Shown here: piece after piece, positions 24,719-38,068 of the stretch
Layout: every line of letters starts with the position of its first letter
Numbering within the stretch: the first letter of the stretch is position 1
Source: Deltaproteobacteria bacterium
GTDB lineage: Bacteria; Myxococcota; Myxococcia; SLRQ01
Assembly (NCBI GenBank): GCA_029210625.1
Contig: JARGFU010000006.1
Coordinates: 124,001 to 188,000, forward strand
DNA: 64,000 bases
Direction: 5' to 3'
The notes under the pieces: model-generated
What the model was told of the DNA's origin: nothing
The model's input: the letters and a program-made list of their open reading frames with translations, nothing else
Databases searched by the model: none
Position numbers and translations under genes: made by a program

Positions 24719-26089
24719 ATGTCCGGAAAGCGACAGAGGATCTCCGGCTGGGGCGGCGTCCCGGAGGCCGAGACCGAGCTGCACCGCCCCGAGCGGATCG
24801 CCGAGCTCGTGGGCCTCGCCCGCGCCGGCGAGGCGCGCATCCCCCGGGGGCTCGGCCGCGCCTACGGTGACGCGGCCTTCCTCGGCGGCGGCCGGACGGT
24901 GCTCCTCGAGCGCCTCGATCGGCTGCTGGCCATCGAGGAGGAGGGCGACGAGGTCTTCGTCCGGGCCGAGGCCGGGACGCGCCTCGATCGGTTGATCGAC
25001 GCCGTCCTGCCCCGGGGGCTCTTCCCCGCGGTGGTGCCGGGCACCGCCGAGGTGACCCTCGGGGGCATGGTGGCCGCCGACGTCCACGGAAAGAACCACC
25101 ACCGGGACGGCGCGGTCTCGAACCACGTCCCCGAGCTGGGCCTGATCGGGCCCGACGGCGCGCGCCACACGATCTCGGCGCGCGCGCAGGACGAGCTCTT
25201 CTGGTCCACCTTCGGGGGCATGGGGCTCACCGGCTTCATCGAGTGGGTGCGGCTGCGGCTGGTGCGGGTGCCGAGCGCCTACTTCTCGGTGGACCTCGAG
25301 CGCAGCCCCGACCTCTCCACCAGCCTCGCGCGCTTCACCGATGACGACGACGCCTATGGCTTCTCGGTCTCGTGGATCGACTGCCTCGCCCGGGGCAGCA
25401 GCCTCGGCCGCGGGGTGCTGATGCGGGGCAACTGGCTGCCCGCCGAGGACCTGCCGGCGAAGCTGCGGGACGAACCCTACCGGGTGGCGAGGAAGCCCCT
25501 CGAGCCGAGGGTGCCCCTGATGCCCCCCGTGAGCCTGGTCAACCCGCTGACCATGCGGGCCTTCAACGAGGCCTTCTACCGCAAGCACCCGCGGAAGCGC
25601 GCCGGGGTCGTCCAGGGCTACTCCGACTTCTTCTTCCCCCTGGACTGGGTGAGGGACTGGAACCGGATCTACGGGCCGGGGGGCTTCCAGCAGTACCAGT
25701 TCGTGGTGCCCTTCGAGACGGCCGAGGCGGCGCTGGTGCAGGTGCTGGAGCGCATCTCCGCGGCGGGCGTGGCCTCCTTCCTGGCCGTCCTCAAGCAGAT
25801 GGGGCCGGGGCAGCCCAGGGCCCGGCTCTCCTTCCCCCAGCCGGGCGTGATCCTGGCCCTCGACCTGCCTCACCGCGGCGTCGAGACCGACGCGCTCCTC
25901 GAGGAGCTCGACCGGAGGGTGCTCGAGCACGGGGGCCGTCTCTACCTGGCCAAGGACGCGCGGATGAGCGCGGCGACCTTCCGGGCGATGTACCCCGAGC
26001 TGCCGGCCTGGCAGGAGGTGAAGGCGAAGATCGACCCCGAGGGGCGCTTCGTCTCGGACCTCGCCCGCCGGCTGGAGCTGATGCCATGA
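24719..26089 (+). CDS. DprE1-like FAD-dependent decaprenylphosphoryl-ribose oxidase homologue
   Basis: The protein has 456 residues. The FAD-binding PCMH domain begins [13 protein letters not shown] and includes [12 protein letters not shown] and the DprE1 signature [16 protein letters not shown] (about residue 125). The C-terminal substrate domain has [10 protein letters not shown], then [15 protein letters not shown], and [11 protein letters not shown], whose Lys412 matches the catalytic Lys of mycobacterial DprE1. The residue aligned with the drug-reactive Cys of DprE1 is Ala380. The next gene is a DprE2-like reductase with a 4-base overlap, so the pair should epimerise C2 of a polyprenyl-phosphoryl ribose to arabinose. 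The sugar-lipid identity is inferred. Confidence 0.85.
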
Positions 26090-26826
26090 GCGGGACCGTG
26101 CTGATCCTGGGGGCCACCTCTCCCATCGCCCGCGGGGTGGCGGAGGCCTTCGCCCGCCGGGGTCACCCCCTCTGCCTGGCCGCCCGCTCCCTCGAGGAGG
26201 CCGAGCGCCTGGCCCGGGACCTCGAGCTGCGCTTCGGCATCGAGACCGGCGCGCGGGCCTTCGAGGCCGAGGCCGTGGAGACCCACCGGGACCTCCTCGA
26301 GGCCGTGGACGCCTGCCGGGACGGGCTCGGGGGCGTGGTGCTGGCCTTCGGAGCCCTCGGCGACGCCGAGGAGGCAGCCCGGGACTTCGAGGCGGCGGCC
26401 CACCTGATCGACGTGAACTACCGCGGGGCCGTCTCGGTCCTCACCCACGCCGCCGAGCTCCTGGAGCAGAAGGGCCACGGCTTCCTCGCCGTCCTCTCCT
26501 CGGTGGCCGGCGACCGGGGCCGCAAGTCGAACTACGTCTACGGCTCGGCGAAGGCCGGGCTGACGGCCTACACCCAGGGCCTGCGCGGCCGTCTCCACCC
26601 GGCCGGGGTGCGGGTGCTCACCGTGAAGCCGGGCTTCGTGGACACCGCGATGACCTTCGGCAAGCCGGGGGTCTTCGCCGTCGCGGATCCGCGCCGGGTG
26701 GGGGAGGGGATCGTCCGGGCCCTCGAGCGGGGCGAGGACGTGGTCTACCTGCCTCGCTTCTGGCGCGGGATCATGACCGTGCTGCGGCACGTGCCCGAGG
26801 TCATCTTCAAGCGCCTCGATCTCTAG
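26086..26826 (+). CDS. DprE2-like short-chain dehydrogenase/reductase
   Basis: The protein has 246 residues. The SDR features are [13 protein letters not shown] (cofactor glycine motif), NYRG, the SSVAG segment with the catalytic Ser, and YVYGSAKAG with Tyr and Lys. It closes with the [14 protein letters not shown] block typical of DprE2-type reductases, and a C-terminal hydrophobic tail. In mycobacteria DprE2 reduces the 2-keto intermediate made by DprE1. The ATG overlaps the DprE1-like stop by four bases. A different keto-sugar or keto-lipid reductase is possible but the tight pairing supports DprE2. Confidence 0.82.
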
Positions 26827-27926: not shown

Positions 27927-29525
27927 ATGACAGCGTCGAACTCCACATCCGGGAAGCGCCGCCAGATCGCGCGCATCGTTCTGGGGGCCGGGCTGATCCT
28001 CCTGCCGCTGGGGATCTCGGCCTACAAGATCTTCGCGCTGGGCTACGACCTCACCGACATCCTCCCGCAGCGGCGCTACCGGGTGACCTACGACCTGCGG
28101 CTCGACGGCCAGGACGAGGCGGTGCGGGTGCGCACCTACCTGCCGGGCTCGGACACGCGCCAGGAGATCACCCAGGAGCAGGATCACTCCCCGGGCTTCC
28201 ACCTGGAGGTGGAGTCGAGCGAGCAGGGGCGAGAGGCGGTCTGGAGCGCGGCGCGGGGCCGGGACGGCGCCCGCATCGAGCACGCCTTCTCCGTGACCCT
28301 GCGGCCGGTGCGCTTCGCGATCGATCCGGCCCTGGAGGTGCCCACCCGCTATCCCGACTCCCTCTCGCCCTACCTCGCCCCGGAGGAGGCGATCCAGGTG
28401 GGGGCACCGGAGATCCAGGCGGTCCTCGAGGAGATCGGCGCCGACGAGGGCACGGTCCTCGAGCGGCTCCGGAAGATCCACGAGCGGACGGCCTCGCTCG
28501 GGGCGCGCCCCTTCAAGGGCCTCACCGACGCCCTCACCGCGCTGCGCCTGGGGGAGGCGAGCTGTAACGGGAAGAGCCGGCTCTTCGTCGCGCTGGCGCG
28601 CACGGCCGGCATCCCGGCGCGGCTGGTCGGGGGTCTGATCCTCGACGCCGGCACCAAGAAGACCTCGCACCAGTGGGTGGAGGCCTGGGTGGGGGGGCAC
28701 TGGGTCCCCTTCGGCCCCACCAACGGACACTTCGCCGAGCTGCCCGAGCGCTACCTCACCCTCTACCGGGGGGACGCCGCGCTCTTCCGCCACACCCGGG
28801 ACATCAACTTCGACTACCGCTTCCACGTGAGCCGCGCGCTGGTGCCCTCGCCGGCGGCCCGCACCTGGCTGCCGGCCTTCAACGTCTGGGCGCTCTTCGA
28901 GCGGCTGGGGCTCTCCTTCGCCCTGCTGCGGACGGTGCTGATGTTGCCCCTCGGCGCGCTCCTGGTGGTGCTCTTCCGCAACGTGGTGGGGATGCCCACC
29001 TACGGCACCTTCCTGCCGGCCCTGCTGGCGGCCGGCGCCGGGCTCACCGGCCCGGGCTGGGGCGTGGCCGGGTTGCTGATCGTGGTGGGCTGCGTGGCGG
29101 CGGTGCGCTGGGTCTTCCACCGGCTGCAGCTCCTGCACTCACCGATGCTGGCGATCCTCCTCGCCGCGGTGACCAGCAGCATCCTCGCCACGGCGTTGCT
29201 CGCCGATCACCTCCAGCTCGGACGCCTCGCCTACGTCACCGCCTTCCCCATCGCGGTCCTCGCGATCACCGCCGAGCGCTTCTACCTCTCCCTCGTCGAG
29301 CGTGGCAGCCGGGAGGCCCTCCTCCACCTCGGGGGGACGATGGTGGTGATGCTGGCCTGCTACGTGGTGATGACCTCCCTGGCCTTCCAGGTGCTGATCA
29401 TCGGCTTCCCGGAGGTGCTCCTCCTGGTCGTCGCCGCCGACGTCTACCTCGGCCGCTGGGTGGGGATGCGCCTCTTCGAGTACCTGCGCTTCCGTCGGCT
29501 CCTGGCGCCGGAGGGCGAGGCGTGA
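27927..29525 (+). CDS. inactive transglutaminase-like protein with 7-TM domain (UUP1 family)
   Basis: The protein has 532 residues. One N-terminal membrane helix (about 14-32) is followed by an exported region of about 290 residues holding a transglutaminase-like domain: EASCNGKSRLFVALARTAG with Cys213, SHQWVEAW with His248, but WVPFGPTNG where the usual catalytic Asp is Gly263. From about 320 to 515 there are roughly seven membrane helices. This is the arrangement of the inactive-transglutaminase/7TM family that occurs beside an ATP-grasp ligase. The stop overlaps that ligase by four bases. It is probably a membrane scaffold or receptor for a peptide-tagging system. Confidence 0.82.
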   Translation: MTASNSTSGKRRQIARIVLGAGLILLPLGISAYKIFALGYDLTDILPQRRYRVTYDLRLDGQDEAVRVRTYLPGSDTRQEITQEQDHSPGFHLEVESSEQGREAVWSAARGRDGARIEHAFSVTLRPVRFAIDPALEVPTRYPDSLSPYLAPEEAIQVGAPEIQAVLEEIGADEGTVLERLRKIHERTASLGARPFKGLTDALTALRLGEASCNGKSRLFVALARTAGIPARLVGGLILDAGTKKTSHQWVEAWVGGHWVPFGPTNGHFAELPERYLTLYRGDAALFRHTRDINFDYRFHVSRALVPSPAARTWLPAFNVWALFERLGLSFALLRTVLMLPLGALLVVLFRNVVGMPTYGTFLPALLAAGAGLTGPGWGVAGLLIVVGCVAAVRWVFHRLQLLHSPMLAILLAAVTSSILATALLADHLQLGRLAYVTAFPIAVLAITAERFYLSLVERGSREALLHLGGTMVVMLACYVVMTSLAFQVLIIGFPEVLLLVVAADVYLGRWVGMRLFEYLRFRRLLAPEGEA

Positions 29526-30412
29526 GGTCGCTCTTCTCCGGGCTCGAGGCCCTGGTGAAGCGCCGCGCCCGGGTCATCGGGATGAACCGGCGCAACGTGG
29601 AGCTGGTCTACCCGCACAACCGCCGGATGGACTACCCGCTGGCGGACGACAAGCTCCTGACCAAGGAGGTGCTCGCCGCGGCGGGGGTGCCCACCCCCGA
29701 GGTGATCGCCATCTGCGAGGCCCTCCACCGGGTGCCGGCCACCCTGGCCGCGCTCCGGGGACGCTCTCACTTCGTGGTGAAGCCCGCCCGGGGCAGCGGC
29801 GGCGACGGCATCCTGGTGGTGGACGAGGCCCTCGAGGGCGGCGGCTGGCGGCGGGGCCCCGAGCGGATCGTGGACGAGGACGAGCTGCGCCGGCACCTGG
29901 GGGACATCGTCTTCGGGGCCTACGCCAAGGACCGCGAGGATCGGGCCTTCGTCGAGGAGAAGGTGCGGGCCGATCCCGTCCTCGGGCGGCTCTTCCCCGG
30001 CGCCCTCTGCGACATCCGGGTGTTGATGCTGGAGGGCCGGGTGCTCATGGTGATGGTGCGGGTGCCCACCCGGCGCTCCGGCGGCCGCGCGAACCTCCAC
30101 CAGGGCGGCGTCGGGCTGGCGGTCGATCTCGAGGACGGCGAGCTCGTCCGGGGGCTCTGTGGCGGCAAGGTGATCACCACCCACCCCGACACCGGAGAGC
30201 CCCTGCTGGGGACGCGGATCCCCGCCTGGGAGGAGATCCTGGAGGTCGCTCGCCGGACGGCGGCGGCCGTGCCGCTGGGCTACCTGGGGATCGACCTGGT
30301 GGTCGACGCCGAGCGTGGCCCGCTCGTGCTCGAGATCAACGCCCGTCCGGGGCTGGAGATCCAGAACGTCCACGGCCGCGGCCTGGCGCAGATCGTGGAG
30401 GCCGGCCCGTGA
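29522..30412 (+). CDS. alpha-L-glutamate-ligase-like ATP-grasp protein
   Basis: The protein has 296 residues. The N-terminus has the family motif IGMNRRNVELVYPHNRR; the ATP-grasp core includes FVVKPARGSGGDGILVVD for the ATP lid, VEEKV, CDIRVLMLEG, RVPTRRSGGRANLHQGGVG and the magnesium residues in LVLEINARPGLEIQN at about 275-285. All nucleotide- and metal-binding residues seem intact. These ligases join an amino acid to a carboxylate using ATP; the substrate in this family is unknown. GTG at 29522 overlaps the upstream stop, and its stop overlaps the TPR gene. Confidence 0.87.
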   Translation: MRSLFSGLEALVKRRARVIGMNRRNVELVYPHNRRMDYPLADDKLLTKEVLAAAGVPTPEVIAICEALHRVPATLAALRGRSHFVVKPARGSGGDGILVVDEALEGGGWRRGPERIVDEDELRRHLGDIVFGAYAKDREDRAFVEEKVRADPVLGRLFPGALCDIRVLMLEGRVLMVMVRVPTRRSGGRANLHQGGVGLAVDLEDGELVRGLCGGKVITTHPDTGEPLLGTRIPAWEEILEVARRTAAAVPLGYLGIDLVVDAERGPLVLEINARPGLEIQNVHGRGLAQIVEAGP

Positions 30413-32319
30413 GCCACCCGCTGGCGGTCAGTCGACTCTGGCCGGTGCTCACGGTGCTCGCCGGCCTGATCACCGGGGCGCTGGTGCTGGAGCGGGTCGC
30501 CGAGGATCGCGCCGCTCAGCCGATGATCGTCACGATCCACGCCGGCGCGGTCATCGATCCCGAGGGCGAGGACGGCGCGGAGGAGGAGCAGCTCGACGAC
30601 GCGATCGTCGATCCCCGGCAGAGCGAGGCCCGCGCGCTCGGGCGCCGGGGCGAGGTGGGGCCAGCGGTCGAGACCCTGCGCGCCGTGGTGGCCGACCACC
30701 CGGAGAGCCCCGCGCCCCGGGCGGAGCTGGCCTTCTGGCTGCTGGAGGCGGGCCAGGTGAGCGAGGCCCTCTCCGCCGTCGACTCGGCCCTCGCCCTGCA
30801 GCCCGACGAGGCGCGCTGGCACCTGCGGCGGGGCATCGCCCTGGGCCGCCTCGGACGCGACGCCGACGCCGAGGCGGCGCTGCGTCGCGCGCTGGAGCTG
30901 CGCGAGACCCTCGACCGGGCGCGGATCCTCCTGGGGGTCCGCCTGCGGCGCCGCGGCGATCTCGACGGAGCCCGGGAGACGCTGCTGCCTGCGACCACGC
31001 GGGGGAGCAACGAGGAGCGCGCGCGAGCCCTGATCGAGCTCGGGCAGGTCCTGCTCCTCGAGGGCCGCAACGACGAGGCCGCCGATCACTTCGAGAGAGG
31101 CCTGAATCTGGCGCCGGCGATCCCCGAGCTGCGGGTTCGGATCGGGCGCGCCTGGATCGCCAGCGGGCGGGGCAAGGAGGCGCGGCGGCGGGGCCTGGCG
31201 GTCCTCGAGAAGGCCGCGGTGCTCGCCCCGGATCTGCCGATGGTCCACGACGCCCTCGGGCGCGCCTACGAGCGGCTGGAGCGCCCGGACGAGGCGCGGT
31301 TGACCTACCTCAAGGCTATCTCCCTGGACGGCGACGACACCTACGCCCGCCGGCGGCTGCTGCGGCTGGAGATGGCCGAGCAGGCCTTCTCCTCCGCGCG
31401 CCGCCAGGTCGAGCGCCTCCTGGAGGTGGACGCCGGCAACCCCGAGCACCACTTCCTGGCGGGGCTGCTCGCCGCGCGGAGCGGCGAGGCCGCAGAGGCC
31501 CGGCAGGCCTACGGTCGCGCCATCGAGCTTCGCGGCGGGCGCTACCCCGAGGCGCACTTCAACCTCGGTGCGCTCGAGCGCCGGGAGGGGAAGCTCGAGG
31601 CCTCCGCGGCGGCCTACCGCGCGGCCGTCGAGCACCGGCCGGACTACAAGGCCGCCATCAACAACCTGGGGCTGGTGCTGGCGGAGGCGGGGCACAACGA
31701 CGAGGCCCTGGCCGCCTTCGACGAAGCCATCGCGCTCGACGCCGACTACGCCATCGCGCACCTCAACCGGGGCAAGCTCCTGACCACGCTCGAGCGCTAC
31801 GACGAGGCCGAGGCCGCCCTGAAGCAGGCGCTGGCCATCCGCGGAGACTACCCGGCCGCCACCCTCGACCTGGGGGTGGTCCACCTGCGCCAGGCGGATC
31901 CGGCCGAGGCGGTGCGGCTCTACCAGGAGCTGGTGGACCATCACCCGCGCTACCTCCTGGGCCGCTACAACCTCGGCCTCGCGCTCCTCCAGGCCCGGAA
32001 GGTCGACGAGGCCCGGAAGAGCTTCGAGAAGGCCCTGGAGCTCGACCCCTCCCACCTGCCCTCCCTGCGCCAGCTCGTCGGTCTCGACCTCGAGCAGGAG
32101 CAGCCGGCCCGGGCCCTGCCTCACCTCCGGGAGATCCTCGACTACGCCCCGGACGACCTCTGGGCCCGCCGCCAGGTGGCTCGCAGCCATGCAGCCCTGG
32201 GCGAGCTCGAGGCCTGCCGGAGGGAGCTGGCGGTCCTCCAGGCCGCCAGCAGCGAGGGTGAGGACGCCGACCTGCAGGCGCTGGTGCAGGCCTGCGCCGA
32301 GCCCGCGCCGGCTCCCTGA
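30409..32319 (+). CDS. periplasmic TPR-repeat protein with N-terminal anchor
   Basis: The protein has 636 residues. A hydrophobic segment at about 9-29 anchors or exports it, followed by a short acidic linker (45-65), and then about 15 TPR units to the end, with many Ala/Leu/Asn-Leu-Gly repeats such as AHFNLGALERREGKLEAS, AINNLGLVLAEAGHNDEALA and AHLNRGKLLTTLERYDEAE. It starts with GTG at 30409 overlapping the ligase stop by four bases, so the three genes 27927-32319 are co-translated. It probably scaffolds the 7-TM/ATP-grasp system in the periplasm. Confidence 0.85.
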   Translation: MSHPLAVSRLWPVLTVLAGLITGALVLERVAEDRAAQPMIVTIHAGAVIDPEGEDGAEEEQLDDAIVDPRQSEARALGRRGEVGPAVETLRAVVADHPESPAPRAELAFWLLEAGQVSEALSAVDSALALQPDEARWHLRRGIALGRLGRDADAEAALRRALELRETLDRARILLGVRLRRRGDLDGARETLLPATTRGSNEERARALIELGQVLLLEGRNDEAADHFERGLNLAPAIPELRVRIGRAWIASGRGKEARRRGLAVLEKAAVLAPDLPMVHDALGRAYERLERPDEARLTYLKAISLDGDDTYARRRLLRLEMAEQAFSSARRQVERLLEVDAGNPEHHFLAGLLAARSGEAAEARQAYGRAIELRGGRYPEAHFNLGALERREGKLEASAAAYRAAVEHRPDYKAAINNLGLVLAEAGHNDEALAAFDEAIALDADYAIAHLNRGKLLTTLERYDEAEAALKQALAIRGDYPAATLDLGVVHLRQADPAEAVRLYQELVDHHPRYLLGRYNLGLALLQARKVDEARKSFEKALELDPSHLPSLRQLVGLDLEQEQPARALPHLREILDYAPDDLWARRQVARSHAALGELEACRRELAVLQAASSEGEDADLQALVQACAEPAPAP

Positions 32320-33667: not shown

Positions 33668-36600
33668 ATGAAGCGCCTCGCTGGCCTGTTCCTGCTCTCC
33701 TTCCTGATCGCGGCCTGCCCGGAGAAGGCGCCCCCGCCGCCCCCGCCCCCCCCGCCGCCCCCTGAGGATCCGAAGGAGACGCCCGAGCCGCCGAAGGGGA
33801 TCGGAGACGAGGCCGCGGCGGCGGACCTCCTGGCCCGCAAGCCCGACCTCCCGCCAGTGGCGCCGGAGAAGGCGCCCGAGGCCAGCCCACGCCTGGGCGA
33901 GGCGCCCGACGTGCAGGCGCTCCTCACGCGGATCGATCGGCACTTCGAGGACCGGGCGGGGCAGCGCATCTACATCCAGACCGACAAGCCCCTCTACAAG
34001 CCGGGCGAGACCATCTGGGTGAAGAGCTGGGATCTGATGACCAGCACCCTGGCGGGCGCGGCCCACAACCAGGGCAGCTACTACGAGCTGGTCAGCCCCA
34101 AGGGGGCGGTGGTCCTCAAGAAGCGGGTCCTCTCGGAGGGGGGGCTCTCCTCCAACGACTTCGAGCTCCCCGCCGAGGTGCAGGGCGGCGAGTACAAGCT
34201 GCGGGTGCGGGCCTTCGACGGCTCGATGGCGGAGCGCACGATCATCGTCAGCACCTACGAGCCGCCGCGGATCAAGAAGAAGCTGGAGTTCCTGCGCAAG
34301 GCCTACGGCCCCGGGGACTCCGTCGCCGCGTCGCTCTCCCTGAAGCGGCCCACCGGCGAGGCGCTGGCCCGGCAGGCGGTGGAGGGCATCGTCATGCTCG
34401 ACGGCGCCGAGCTGCCCCGGATCCGGGCCAAGACCGACGAGGAGGGCGAGGTGGTCCTGAGCTTCGCGCTGCCGGAGACCCTCGAGGTGGGTGACGGACT
34501 CCTGACGGTGATGATCGACGACGGCGGGGTGACCGAGTCGGTGACCCGGCGGGTCCCGATCCTGATGCGGAAGGTGCAGCTGGCCTTCTTCCCCGAGGGC
34601 GGCCAGCTGGTGGAGGGGCTCTCCGGCCGCCTCTACTTCGAGGCCAAGAACATGCTGGGCAAGCCGGCCGATCTCTCCGGCCGGATCCTCGACGACCACG
34701 ACCAGGCGGTCGCCCGCTTCTCCACCTACAAGAACGGGCTCGGCCGGATGAACTTCACCCCCGCCACCGGCCGGACCTACCGGGCGGTGATCGACGCGCC
34801 GGCGGGCATCACCGAGGAGGTGGCCCTGCCGCTGCCCGCTCCGGAGGGCTGCGTGCTGCAGAGCTTCGACGACCTCGACGGCCAGCTCGAGGCCCTGCGG
34901 GTGGGGGTGCGCTGCAGCGAGGCCCGCACGGTGACCGTGGTGGCGACCCTGCGGGAGCGGGCCATCGACGCGGCGACGATCGAGGTGCCGGAGGGTGGGC
35001 AGGCGGTGGCCTACCTGAAGGCCGAGGAGGAGAGCCTGGTGGGCCGCCAGGGCGTGGCCCGGGTGACGGTCTTCGACGCCGAGAAGCGCCCCCTGGCCGA
35101 GCGCCTCGTCTACCGGCACCGGCGAGCCCGGCTGAAGGTGGAGGTGACGCCGCGCAAGAAGAGCTTCGCGCCGCGCGATCAGGTCCTCCTCGAGGTCAAG
35201 ACGAGCACCCCGGCGGGCGAGCCGGTCCCGGCCGAGCTGGCGCTCTCGGTGGTGGACGACACGGTGATCTCCTTCGCCGACGACAAGACCGGGCGGCTCT
35301 TCGAGACGCTCTTCCTCGAGCCCGAGCTCCCCGGGAAGATCGAGGAGCCGCGCTTCTTCTTCGATCTCACCGAGGACAAGAGCGCCCTGGCCCTCGACCT
35401 GCTCATGGGCACCCGCGGCTGGCGGCGCTTCGACTGGAAGCCGGTCTTCGCGCCGCCGCCGCCGGAGCCGCTGCCGACCAGCACCGAGGTGGCCGGATTC
35501 CGGGAGCTGCCGGCCGGGGCCATGCCACCTCCCATGCCGAGACCGCGCCTGAAGGCCAAGGGCGGGATGCCCCGGGACCTCGCGGTGCCGCGCCGCGCCC
35601 CGGCGAAGGCGCCCGCCGAGATGAGGCGGCGGGCGGTCCTGGCGCTCCCCGAGGCGGAGCCCGCGCCCGAAGCCAAGAAGCAGCTACGGGTGCAGGTTGC
35701 CGCGGACCGCCGGGAGAACCGCCTCGCGGATCCGGCCCCCGAGCCGCCGCCGATGGCGGCGCCCGTCGAGGCCGCCCCGAGGCAGATGGCCGACCAGCTG
35801 ATGGAGGCCGACGAGGCCGAGCCGATGGAGCTCGGCGGGCTCGAGCGAGCGGCCGGCGGGCGGGGTGTGGGCCTCTTCGGGGGGAAGGACGCCGACTGGG
35901 AGATGGCGGCGAAGGAGGAGGCGCAGGTCGCCTGGGCCCCGGTGCGGGTCTTCCCGGCGCCCAGCTACTCGGGGGCCTACGACGGTCCCCGCACCGACTT
36001 CCGGGAGACCATCCACTGGGCGCCCACCGTGCGCACCGGCAAGGACGGGACGGCGGCGGTGACCTTCTACCTCTCGGACGCGGTCACCTCCTTCCGGATC
36101 GTCACCGAGGGCGTGGCCGCCGGCGTGGCCGGCCGGGACGAGACGGTGATCCAGTCCAAGCTCCCCTTCAGCATGTCGGTGAAGCTGCCCCTCGAGGTCA
36201 GCGCCGGAGACCGGCTGCTCCTCCCCCTCTCCCTCACCAACGAGCGCGCCGAGCCCATGGAGGTCGAGGTCGAGGCCACCTTCGGGGAGGGGCTCGCCCT
36301 CGCCGAGCCCCTGGCCGCCGGTGCGGTCAGCATCGCCGCCGGTGAGCGCAACAGCCAGATGTACCCGCTCGAGGTGAAGCGCCAGAAGGGTCAGGTGCCG
36401 GTGCGCTTCGCCGCCTCCAGCCGCGGGCTCTCGGACGAGTTCGTCCGGGAGGTCCGGGTGGTGCCCCGGGGCTTCCCCCAGGAGGTGAGCCACAGCGGAG
36501 AGGTGGCCGAACGCCAGTCGTTCACCGTCGAGGTGATCGATCCCCTCGAGCACACCACCGAGGCCTCGCTGCGGGTCTATCCCTCGCCCCTGGCGACGGT

Positions 36601-38068
36601 GACCGGAGGCCTCGACGGGCTCCTGCGCGAGCCCCACGGCTGCTTCGAGCAGGCCAGCTCGGTGAACTACCCCAACGTCATGGTCATGGGTCTGCTCCAG
36701 TCGGCGGACAAGATCGATCCCGCGCTGCTCGAGCGCTCCCAGGGGCTGCTCCAGCGGGGCTACCGCAAGATCGTCGGCTACGAGACCCCGCAGAAGGGCT
36801 ACGAGTGGTTCGGGGGCGCGCCCGGTCACGAGGCCCTCACCGCCTACGGCCTGCTCGAGTTCGCCGACATGAAGCGAGTCTTCCCCGAGGTGGACGACGC
36901 CATGGTGGACCGGACCGCGCAGTGGCTCCTCTCCCGCCGCGACGGCAAGGGGAGCTTCCAGCGCAACAGCCGGGCCCTGGACAGCTTCGGCCGCGCCTCG
37001 GCCGAGGTGACCGACGCCTACATCGTCTACGCGCTGACCGAGGCGGGCTACACCGACCTGGGGCCCGAGCTCGAGGCGCAGGCCGCCCTCGCCCGCGCGA
37101 GCGAGGACGCCTACCTCCTGGCCCTGGCCACCGCCTCCCTCCACAACCTGGAGCGCTGGCGGGGGCAGGCGAAAGCCGCGGCGAAGCGCCTGGCGGCCCT
37201 CCAGGCCGAGGACGGCAGCTGGAAGCGGGCCGACCACTCCATCACCCGCAGCAGCGGGCTCAACCTGACGATCGAGACCACCGCCCTGGCCCTCCTGGCC
37301 CTCCTCGACGTCGGCGGCCACGACGCCGCGGTTCGCCGGGGCGTCGAGTGGCTCAACGCCAACCGGGGCGGCTTCGGTCAGTGGGGCGCCACCCAGGCCA
37401 CGGTGCTGGCGATCAAGGCCACCCTGCGGCACGCGGAGGCCTCCCGCCGCATCTCGGGCGCGGGGAGCGTCACCCTGAAGGTGAACGGCGAGGAGGTCGC
37501 CACGCTCTCCTACGAGGACGGCCGCGGCGAGCCCCTGCTCTTCGAGGGCTTCGGCGAGCGCCTCGTGTCCGGGGAGAACACCCTGGAGCTCGTCCGCACG
37601 AGCGAGGTCCCGGTGGAGGGTGGGCTGCCCTTCTCCTTCGCCGCGACCTACCGGACCCTGACCCCCGACAGCGACGAGGGGGTGCCCCTCGCCCTGGAGA
37701 CCGAGCTCGCCCGCGCGGAGGCGAAGCTGGGCGAGAACCTCCGGCTGACGGTGCACCTGAAGAACAAGACCGAGAAGGGGCTGCCGATGGCGCTGGCCCG
37801 GGTGGGCCTGCCCGCCGGGCTCACCTTCCAGACCTGGCAGCTCAAGGAGCTCGTCGAGAAGGGCACCATCGCCTTCTACGAGACCCGGGCCAGGGAGGTG
37901 ATCCTCTACTTCCGTCAGCTGGAGCCCGGGCAGGCGCTCGACGTGCCCCTCGAGCTCACGGCCTACGTGCCGGGCGAGTACCAGGGGCCGGCCTCGAGCG
38001 CCTACCTCTACTACGGCAACGACCAGAAGGTCTGGGTCGGAGGGCTGCCCGTCCGGATCCTCCCCTGA
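33668..38068 (+). CDS. alpha-2-macroglobulin-family lipoprotein with thioester motif
   Basis: The protein has 1466 residues. The lipoprotein signal (FLIAAC lipobox) is followed by a run of ten or more Pro and a Glu/Pro linker. MG2-like YIQTDKPLYKPGETIWVKSW-type sequence starts near residue 100, a long Pro/Ala/Met-rich bait-like stretch lies at about 590-720, and the thioester site GCFEQ has Cys992, followed by the alpha/alpha toroid and C-terminal MG domains. The thioester looks intact, so it should trap attacking proteases covalently, as in bacterial A2Ms. No pbpC (penicillin-binding protein 1C) gene is adjacent, unlike the enterobacterial pair. A GGGGGAAAA precedes the ATG. Confidence 0.9.
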   Translation: MKRLAGLFLLSFLIAACPEKAPPPPPPPPPPPEDPKETPEPPKGIGDEAAAADLLARKPDLPPVAPEKAPEASPRLGEAPDVQALLTRIDRHFEDRAGQRIYIQTDKPLYKPGETIWVKSWDLMTSTLAGAAHNQGSYYELVSPKGAVVLKKRVLSEGGLSSNDFELPAEVQGGEYKLRVRAFDGSMAERTIIVSTYEPPRIKKKLEFLRKAYGPGDSVAASLSLKRPTGEALARQAVEGIVMLDGAELPRIRAKTDEEGEVVLSFALPETLEVGDGLLTVMIDDGGVTESVTRRVPILMRKVQLAFFPEGGQLVEGLSGRLYFEAKNMLGKPADLSGRILDDHDQAVARFSTYKNGLGRMNFTPATGRTYRAVIDAPAGITEEVALPLPAPEGCVLQSFDDLDGQLEALRVGVRCSEARTVTVVATLRERAIDAATIEVPEGGQAVAYLKAEEESLVGRQGVARVTVFDAEKRPLAERLVYRHRRARLKVEVTPRKKSFAPRDQVLLEVKTSTPAGEPVPAELALSVVDDTVISFADDKTGRLFETLFLEPELPGKIEEPRFFFDLTEDKSALALDLLMGTRGWRRFDWKPVFAPPPPEPLPTSTEVAGFRELPAGAMPPPMPRPRLKAKGGMPRDLAVPRRAPAKAPAEMRRRAVLALPEAEPAPEAKKQLRVQVAADRRENRLADPAPEPPPMAAPVEAAPRQMADQLMEADEAEPMELGGLERAAGGRGVGLFGGKDADWEMAAKEEAQVAWAPVRVFPAPSYSGAYDGPRTDFRETIHWAPTVRTGKDGTAAVTFYLSDAVTSFRIVTEGVAAGVAGRDETVIQSKLPFSMSVKLPLEVSAGDRLLLPLSLTNERAEPMEVEVEATFGEGLALAEPLAAGAVSIAAGERNSQMYPLEVKRQKGQVPVRFAASSRGLSDEFVREVRVVPRGFPQEVSHSGEVAERQSFTVEVIDPLEHTTEASLRVYPSPLATVTGGLDGLLREPHGCFEQASSVNYPNVMVMGLLQSADKIDPALLERSQGLLQRGYRKIVGYETPQKGYEWFGGAPGHEALTAYGLLEFADMKRVFPEVDDAMVDRTAQWLLSRRDGKGSFQRNSRALDSFGRASAEVTDAYIVYALTEAGYTDLGPELEAQAALARASEDAYLLALATASLHNLERWRGQAKAAAKRLAALQAEDGSWKRADHSITRSSGLNLTIETTALALLALLDVGGHDAAVRRGVEWLNANRGGFGQWGATQATVLAIKATLRHAEASRRISGAGSVTLKVNGEEVATLSYEDGRGEPLLFEGFGERLVSGENTLELVRTSEVPVEGGLPFSFAATYRTLTPDSDEGVPLALETELARAEAKLGENLRLTVHLKNKTEKGLPMALARVGLPAGLTFQTWQLKELVEKGTIAFYETRAREVILYFRQLEPGQALDVPLELTAYVPGEYQGPASSAYLYYGNDQKVWVGGLPVRILP

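Follow-up and report, generated by a model that had tools for sequence, protein, structure and literature searches.

A variant rlo-type operon encoding an RloB-like membrane protein, an RloC-like ATP-grasp ligase and a TPR protein

The window (the whole stretch of DNA that was analysed, 64,000 nucleotides) contains a set of three genes at positions 27927-32319, and all three genes and every feature given for them below are on the + strand. Gene 1 (27927..29525, 532 aa) encodes an RloB-like membrane protein with an N-terminal TM anchor, an exported transglutaminase-fold domain and a 7TM domain. Gene 2 (29522..30412, 296 aa) encodes an RloC-like ATP-grasp amino-acid ligase that matches PF14397 and TIGR02291, and gene 3 (30409..32319, 636 aa) encodes a protein recognised by many TPR models that is anchored in the inner membrane and presumably periplasmic, with orthologues that adjoin the pair in other genomes. 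Reading of the open frames showed the same overlap, GTGA, at both gene junctions. Both the four-base overlaps and the transglutaminase-7TM / ATP-grasp / TPR architecture given in the original prediction were therefore borne out by the open reading frame coordinates and the Pfam matches. The next gene, 11 bases beyond the TPR gene, is convergent and encodes a response regulator with GGDEF.

The first two genes had been described as a functionally uncharacterised pair. This description is outdated, as the pair is RloB/RloC and its genetics were published in 2025 (Lormand et al., PMC12239564). Against the NCBIfam models the RloB-like protein scored 135.8 bits with NF052267 (RloB, cut-off 900) and gene 2 scored 263 bits with TIGR02291 (rimK_rel_E_lig, cut-off 314). 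Because both scores fall below the cut-offs the two proteins were classed as distant members of these families, and by sequence genes 1 and 2 are remotely related to RloB and RloC of Pseudomonas. In Pseudomonas the rlo operon influences how biofilms form, tolerance to antibiotics and the form of the cells, and a sister branch bears on the product of RloB and RloC. RloA, the remaining member of the operon, is a secreted retropepsin that cleaves runs of eight or more glutamates in vitro, and the poor hypo-osmotic growth of an rloA triple mutant of Pseudomonas aeruginosa is suppressed when rloB or rloC is lost (PMC12239564). In Pseudomonas this secreted protease works against something for which RloB and RloC are needed. 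In a Shewanella screen, disruption of an inactive-transglutaminase-7TM gene resulted in more membrane vesicles (PMC12096838).

The domains of the RloB-like protein were assigned using Pfam and an AF2 model (pLDDT 89.9). The Transglut_core domain covers residues 168-264 (28428..28718; PF01841, 62.7 bits) and the 7TM_transglut domain covers residues 332-525 (28920..29501; PF14402, 126.5 bits) with half-helices predicted in the model, while PF14400 scored 28.3 bits. Foldseek matched the model to 3ISR, a putative cysteine protease (E 1.4e-14, TMt 0.73), and the periplasmic domain of TgpA (6g4h) was match 4 (E 3.9e-5). Like TgpA and other membrane-bound transglutaminase-fold proteins, the RloB-like protein carries an exported transglutaminase-fold domain on a membrane protein, but its membrane part is of the PF14402 type and has an ATP-grasp ligase coupled to it. 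Cys213 (28563..28565, codon TGT), the presumed nucleophile, His248 (28668..28670, codon CAC) and Gly263 (28713..28715, codon GGC) at the catalytic Asp position were all verified at the codon level as originally predicted. Profile alignment matched Cys213, His248 and residue 263 to the Cys, His and Asp of 3ISR. In the AF2 model Cys213 begins a helix, His248 begins a strand and residue 263 closes the strand that follows, which in this predicted structure is the order of the transglutaminase/papain active site. The Cys and His thus stand in the required order in both the alignment and the model. The third catalytic residue, Asp or Asn in active Cys enzymes of the transglutaminase fold, is absent and replaced by Gly263, and this substitution could render the copy in the window inactive.

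The ligase was evaluated in the same way. PF14397 scored 203.7 bits on gene 2, and K87, D258, E271 and N273, the nucleotide and Mg ligands, were invariant in an alignment of 24 relatives, with the catalytic motif D258, E271 and N273 located at 30293..30340. The ATP-grasp residues are all kept, in agreement with the apparently active ligase of the original prediction. The closest solved relatives are RimK-type glutamate ligases, cyanophycin synthetase and TTLL7, and by analogy with these glutamate is the most likely amino acid to be joined. RimK/RimB, which polyglutamylates ribosomal protein S6, shares this kinship to glutamate ligases but is cytosolic with no membrane part, and the genome of the window has a separate RimK-RimB cluster. 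That cluster (RimK, an aspartoacylase-like protein and RimB; L023 5575-7933, G000:C2) holds the only retropepsin of the genome. We considered this PF05618 copy as a hidden RloA and rejected it, as it lies in the RimK cluster on another contig and has no evident signal peptide.

Hydropathy analysis of the TPR protein showed a single hydrophobic segment, an N-terminal signal anchor at residues 10-28 (30436..30492), that was visible in most orthologues inspected as well. Eleven strong TPR repeats were detected as compared to a mean of 3.4 and a maximum of 8 in shuffled sequences, and residues 67-617 leave space for about 16 repeats, making the earlier count of 15 reasonable.

To place the set among its relatives a wider scan of genome contigs was carried out, in which 166 relatives were found and 80 were kept. 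All 80 loci contain the Cys motif that served as the search pattern, so conservation of the Cys was not counted in this sample and the His, the third residue and the neighbours were taken as informative. The relatives were from Myxococcota, Nitrospirota, Gamma-, Beta- and Alphaproteobacteria, Bacteroidota, Spirochaetota, Campylobacterota, Desulfobacterota, Calditrichota and Krumholzibacteria, and none were found in viral contigs. By these sequence matches the three-gene operon is present in at least ten phyla, several of the relatives being metagenome bins with taxon labels that may be imprecise. A TPR gene was adjacent in all 67 loci that had at least 900 bases downstream. The third residue was Asp in most of the relatives and Cys or Gly in the rest.

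Two further surveys, one of Myxococcota and one of Gammaproteobacteria, used a profile of the 7TM domain and were independent of the catalytic Cys. PF14402 was found in 20 of 195 genomes of Myxococcota, the phylum to which the window belongs. Fifteen Myxococcota loci and the window keep the Cys and His and all have an adjacent TPR gene, while none of the five loci without the dyad do. The Gammaproteobacteria gave the same pattern, with a TPR gene at 4/4 dyad loci and at 0/22 dyad-less loci. Pooled, the adjacent TPR gene was present at 20/20 loci with both Cys213 and His248 (window included) versus 0/27 without the dyad. A Fisher test that left the window out (19 dyad against 27 dyad-less loci) gave 2e-13, a value that overstates independence because the loci share ancestry and are divided a single time on the tree. 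The TPR gene is thus conserved with the pair and extends it, as had been proposed.

The surveys also separated the two kinds of locus by their proteases. A retropepsin gene adjoins rloB in 19 of the 20 ordinary RloABC-type loci found among the 22 dyad-less loci of Gammaproteobacteria and is next to 0/20 of the dyad-keeping loci, and the flanking regions of the 80 loci of the wider scan contained none. Counted per genome, retropepsin genes were present in 2 of the 20 Myxococcota genomes having PF14402 and in 16 of the 50 dyad genomes that were scanned. One genome (G277) carries an rlo locus of the retropepsin kind and one of the TPR kind (L221 and L222). Dyad-less Myxococcota pairs (L025-L028) adjoin other exported proteases, either C25-like or S41/PDZ, and another dyad-less neighbour is a protein with an HEIMH motif and no Pfam match. 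A Cys-less transglutaminase-like lipoprotein is also among the neighbours of L025-L028.

A tree was built from the columns of the 7TM region, excluding those of the transglutaminase domain. Loci with and without the dyad fell on the two sides of one branch, with a support of 98 in a quick tree and 100/100 in a careful tree from which five long or aberrant rows had been removed. One sister clade of Gamma- and Alphaproteobacteria has RloB and RloC joined in a single protein of about 800-890 aa, and this fusion likewise formed one branch (100/100). The fusion puts the ligase at the C-terminus of RloB, and that C-terminus must therefore be cytosolic. The tree is unrooted and is compatible with either gain or loss of the dyad, and on it TPR linkage and retention of the dyad go back to the same single event and do not confirm each other independently. 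The third catalytic residue required 12 changes on the tree. The label "inactive" in the original prediction does not suit the TPR branch, as Cys and His are kept, most members have the Asp as well and the changes from Asp to Gly or Cys are scattered. Judged by these residues, the dyad-less RloB of Pseudomonas is rightly called inactive, the label is a poor fit for the dyad-keeping branch and it is not valid for the 7TM_transglut family as a whole.

The repeated loss of the third residue could also be read as the mark of a pseudoenzyme, in which the transglutaminase-fold domain with its Gly263 would just bind a periplasmic peptide or polymer and RloB would act as a receptor or gate controlling RloC. 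Canonical RloB, which is without the Cys-His dyad and yet is genetically important (PMC12239564), is in keeping with this. However, the dyad is kept at every TPR-linked locus of the Cys-independent surveys despite strong divergence, which would be unexpected for mere binding, and the Asp is kept by most members of the branch, and we consider a purely binding role unlikely.

In terms of classification the set resembles rloABC of Pseudomonas aeruginosa in that a gene for an RloB-like 7TM/transglutaminase-fold protein adjoins one for an RloC-like ATP-grasp protein. It differs in having no RloA retropepsin, in an RloB that keeps the Cys and His that rloABC lacks, in a linked TPR gene that is usually accompanied in this branch by a barrel gene, and in its separate branch on the 7TM tree. 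As the two defining features of rloABC, the retropepsin RloA and a transglutaminase domain without Cys-His, were looked for and are both absent, the set is a variant of the rlo kind and not rloABC itself. The word "tetratricopeptide" is absent from the text of Lormand et al. (PMC12239564), and a literature search, which did not take in the possibly relevant Iyer et al. 2009 (PMC3268129), found no description of TPR or barrel linkage.

The neighbours of the relatives' loci were then compared for additional conserved genes. In 33 loci the gene after the TPR gene belongs to a family whose members are mostly 370-420 aa long, different barrel-like families occupy this fourth place in Myxococcota and Spirochaetota, and with three profiles a barrel gene was detected in at least 44 of 54 loci with room. 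An AF2 model of the fourth-gene protein was a 16-strand barrel (pLDDT 89.4, pTM 0.84) whose best Foldseek matches were porins, general porins first, and the fourth gene is accordingly predicted to encode a 16-strand outer-membrane barrel. YfiO-like lipoproteins were encoded between the TPR and barrel genes in several Myxococcota loci. No barrel gene adjoins the three genes of the window, and the Myxococcota barrel profile found none elsewhere in the genome in a search run without a positive control. A candidate obtained with one distant protein query (E 0.026) was not credible and was dropped. The original prediction had noted neither the barrel gene that usually follows nor the joining of RloB and RloC, nor that this kind of locus and retropepsin exclude each other.

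The dyad, the fusion and the TPR and barrel partners suggest where the rlo product is made, processed and sent. Our tentative reading, which we regard as quite possible, is a trans-envelope form of rlo, with RloC making an amino-acid (polyglutamate-like) chain, RloB moving and processing it and the TPR protein and barrel passing it outward; the substrate, the direction of movement, the catalysis and the export are what we infer here. Positioned at the inner face of the RloB-like 7TM protein, the cytoplasmic RloC-like ligase would link amino acids, with glutamate as the likeliest, to form a chain that is free or bound to a substrate. By way of the 7TM domain this chain would pass, or be presented, to the exported domain with the transglutaminase fold, where the Cys-His dyad may cut or transfer it, replacing the separate polyglutamate-cleaving RloA of Pseudomonas. 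As the dyad branch has no linked protease and has Cys-His in RloB, processing within the membrane protein would be the simplest account. The anchored TPR protein would hold the product or, if a barrel is encoded, hand it over to this outer-membrane protein. For the copy in the window, which has Gly263 and no adjacent barrel gene, activity and export are less certain, and its product may remain periplasmic or pass through an unlinked porin. Cys213, His248 and the ATP-grasp residue E271 are the concrete residues that the dyad branch offers.

The same parts could instead modify the envelope with no free polymer secreted. In that case RloC would attach amino acids to a precursor linked to lipid or protein, RloB would flip this precursor and the transglutaminase-fold domain would transfer it to an envelope acceptor. 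Transglutaminase-fold enzymes can act as transferases and in Pseudomonas the rlo phenotypes involve cell shape and antibiotics that act on the cell wall (PMC12239564), but the stretches of at least eight Glu that RloA requires in vitro point to a chain and the linked outer-membrane barrel suggests outward passage, and we find envelope modification doubtful. Peptide tagging or sensing, as first proposed, could still apply, but a ligase-made chain that would be exported suits the partner genes better. According to work cited in PMC12239564, a two-component system connected with the integrity of the cell wall induces rloABC in Vibrio, which is consistent with a peptide- or stress-sensing system. 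The recurrent neighbours of the relatives' loci included no conserved regulator or kinase partner and the conserved partners are instead a scaffold and a barrel, making a sensing role very improbable.

The trans-envelope reading resembles two known kinds of system in its way of working. The Pgs/Cap poly-gamma-glutamate synthases combine a ligase, a membrane subunit and an exported processing enzyme, and we take their ligase family to be different from the ATP-grasp family found here. The 7TM domain has no detectable sequence kinship to CapC. It looks like CapC/PgsC by eye, and this relationship was rejected as the best hhalign match (P 0.026) was in an unrelated register; Foldseek with the 7TM part gave just a weak NqrD match and none to CapC/PgsC, and a search of the genome with PF14102 (CapC-type subunit) found no match. 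AlgK/AlgE, BcsC and PgaA-type exporters pair periplasmic TPRs with an outer-membrane barrel; the rlo-like set differs in having no sugar synthase and in a barrel model that matched general porins first. A still broader proposal is that the operon encodes a new trans-envelope machine of at least ten phyla, a Gram-negative counterpart of the polyglutamate capsule systems in which a ligase-made polymer would be exported by a 7TM protein with a Cys enzyme, a TPR protein and a 16-strand barrel, and this we consider rather unlikely.

Several other features were observed. Many genomes of one Myxococcota genus have two tandem CapC domains per open frame of about 1066 aa (L159-L173 and similar). Within the window, positions 33668-38068 encode a bacterial alpha-2-macroglobulin-like protein with the thioester motif CFEQ at residue 992. 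Positions 24719-26826 encode a DprE1/DprE2-like pair that scored 464 and 206 bits, just under the NCBIfam cut-offs of 500 and 250, and lies outside the group in which this pathway is best known.
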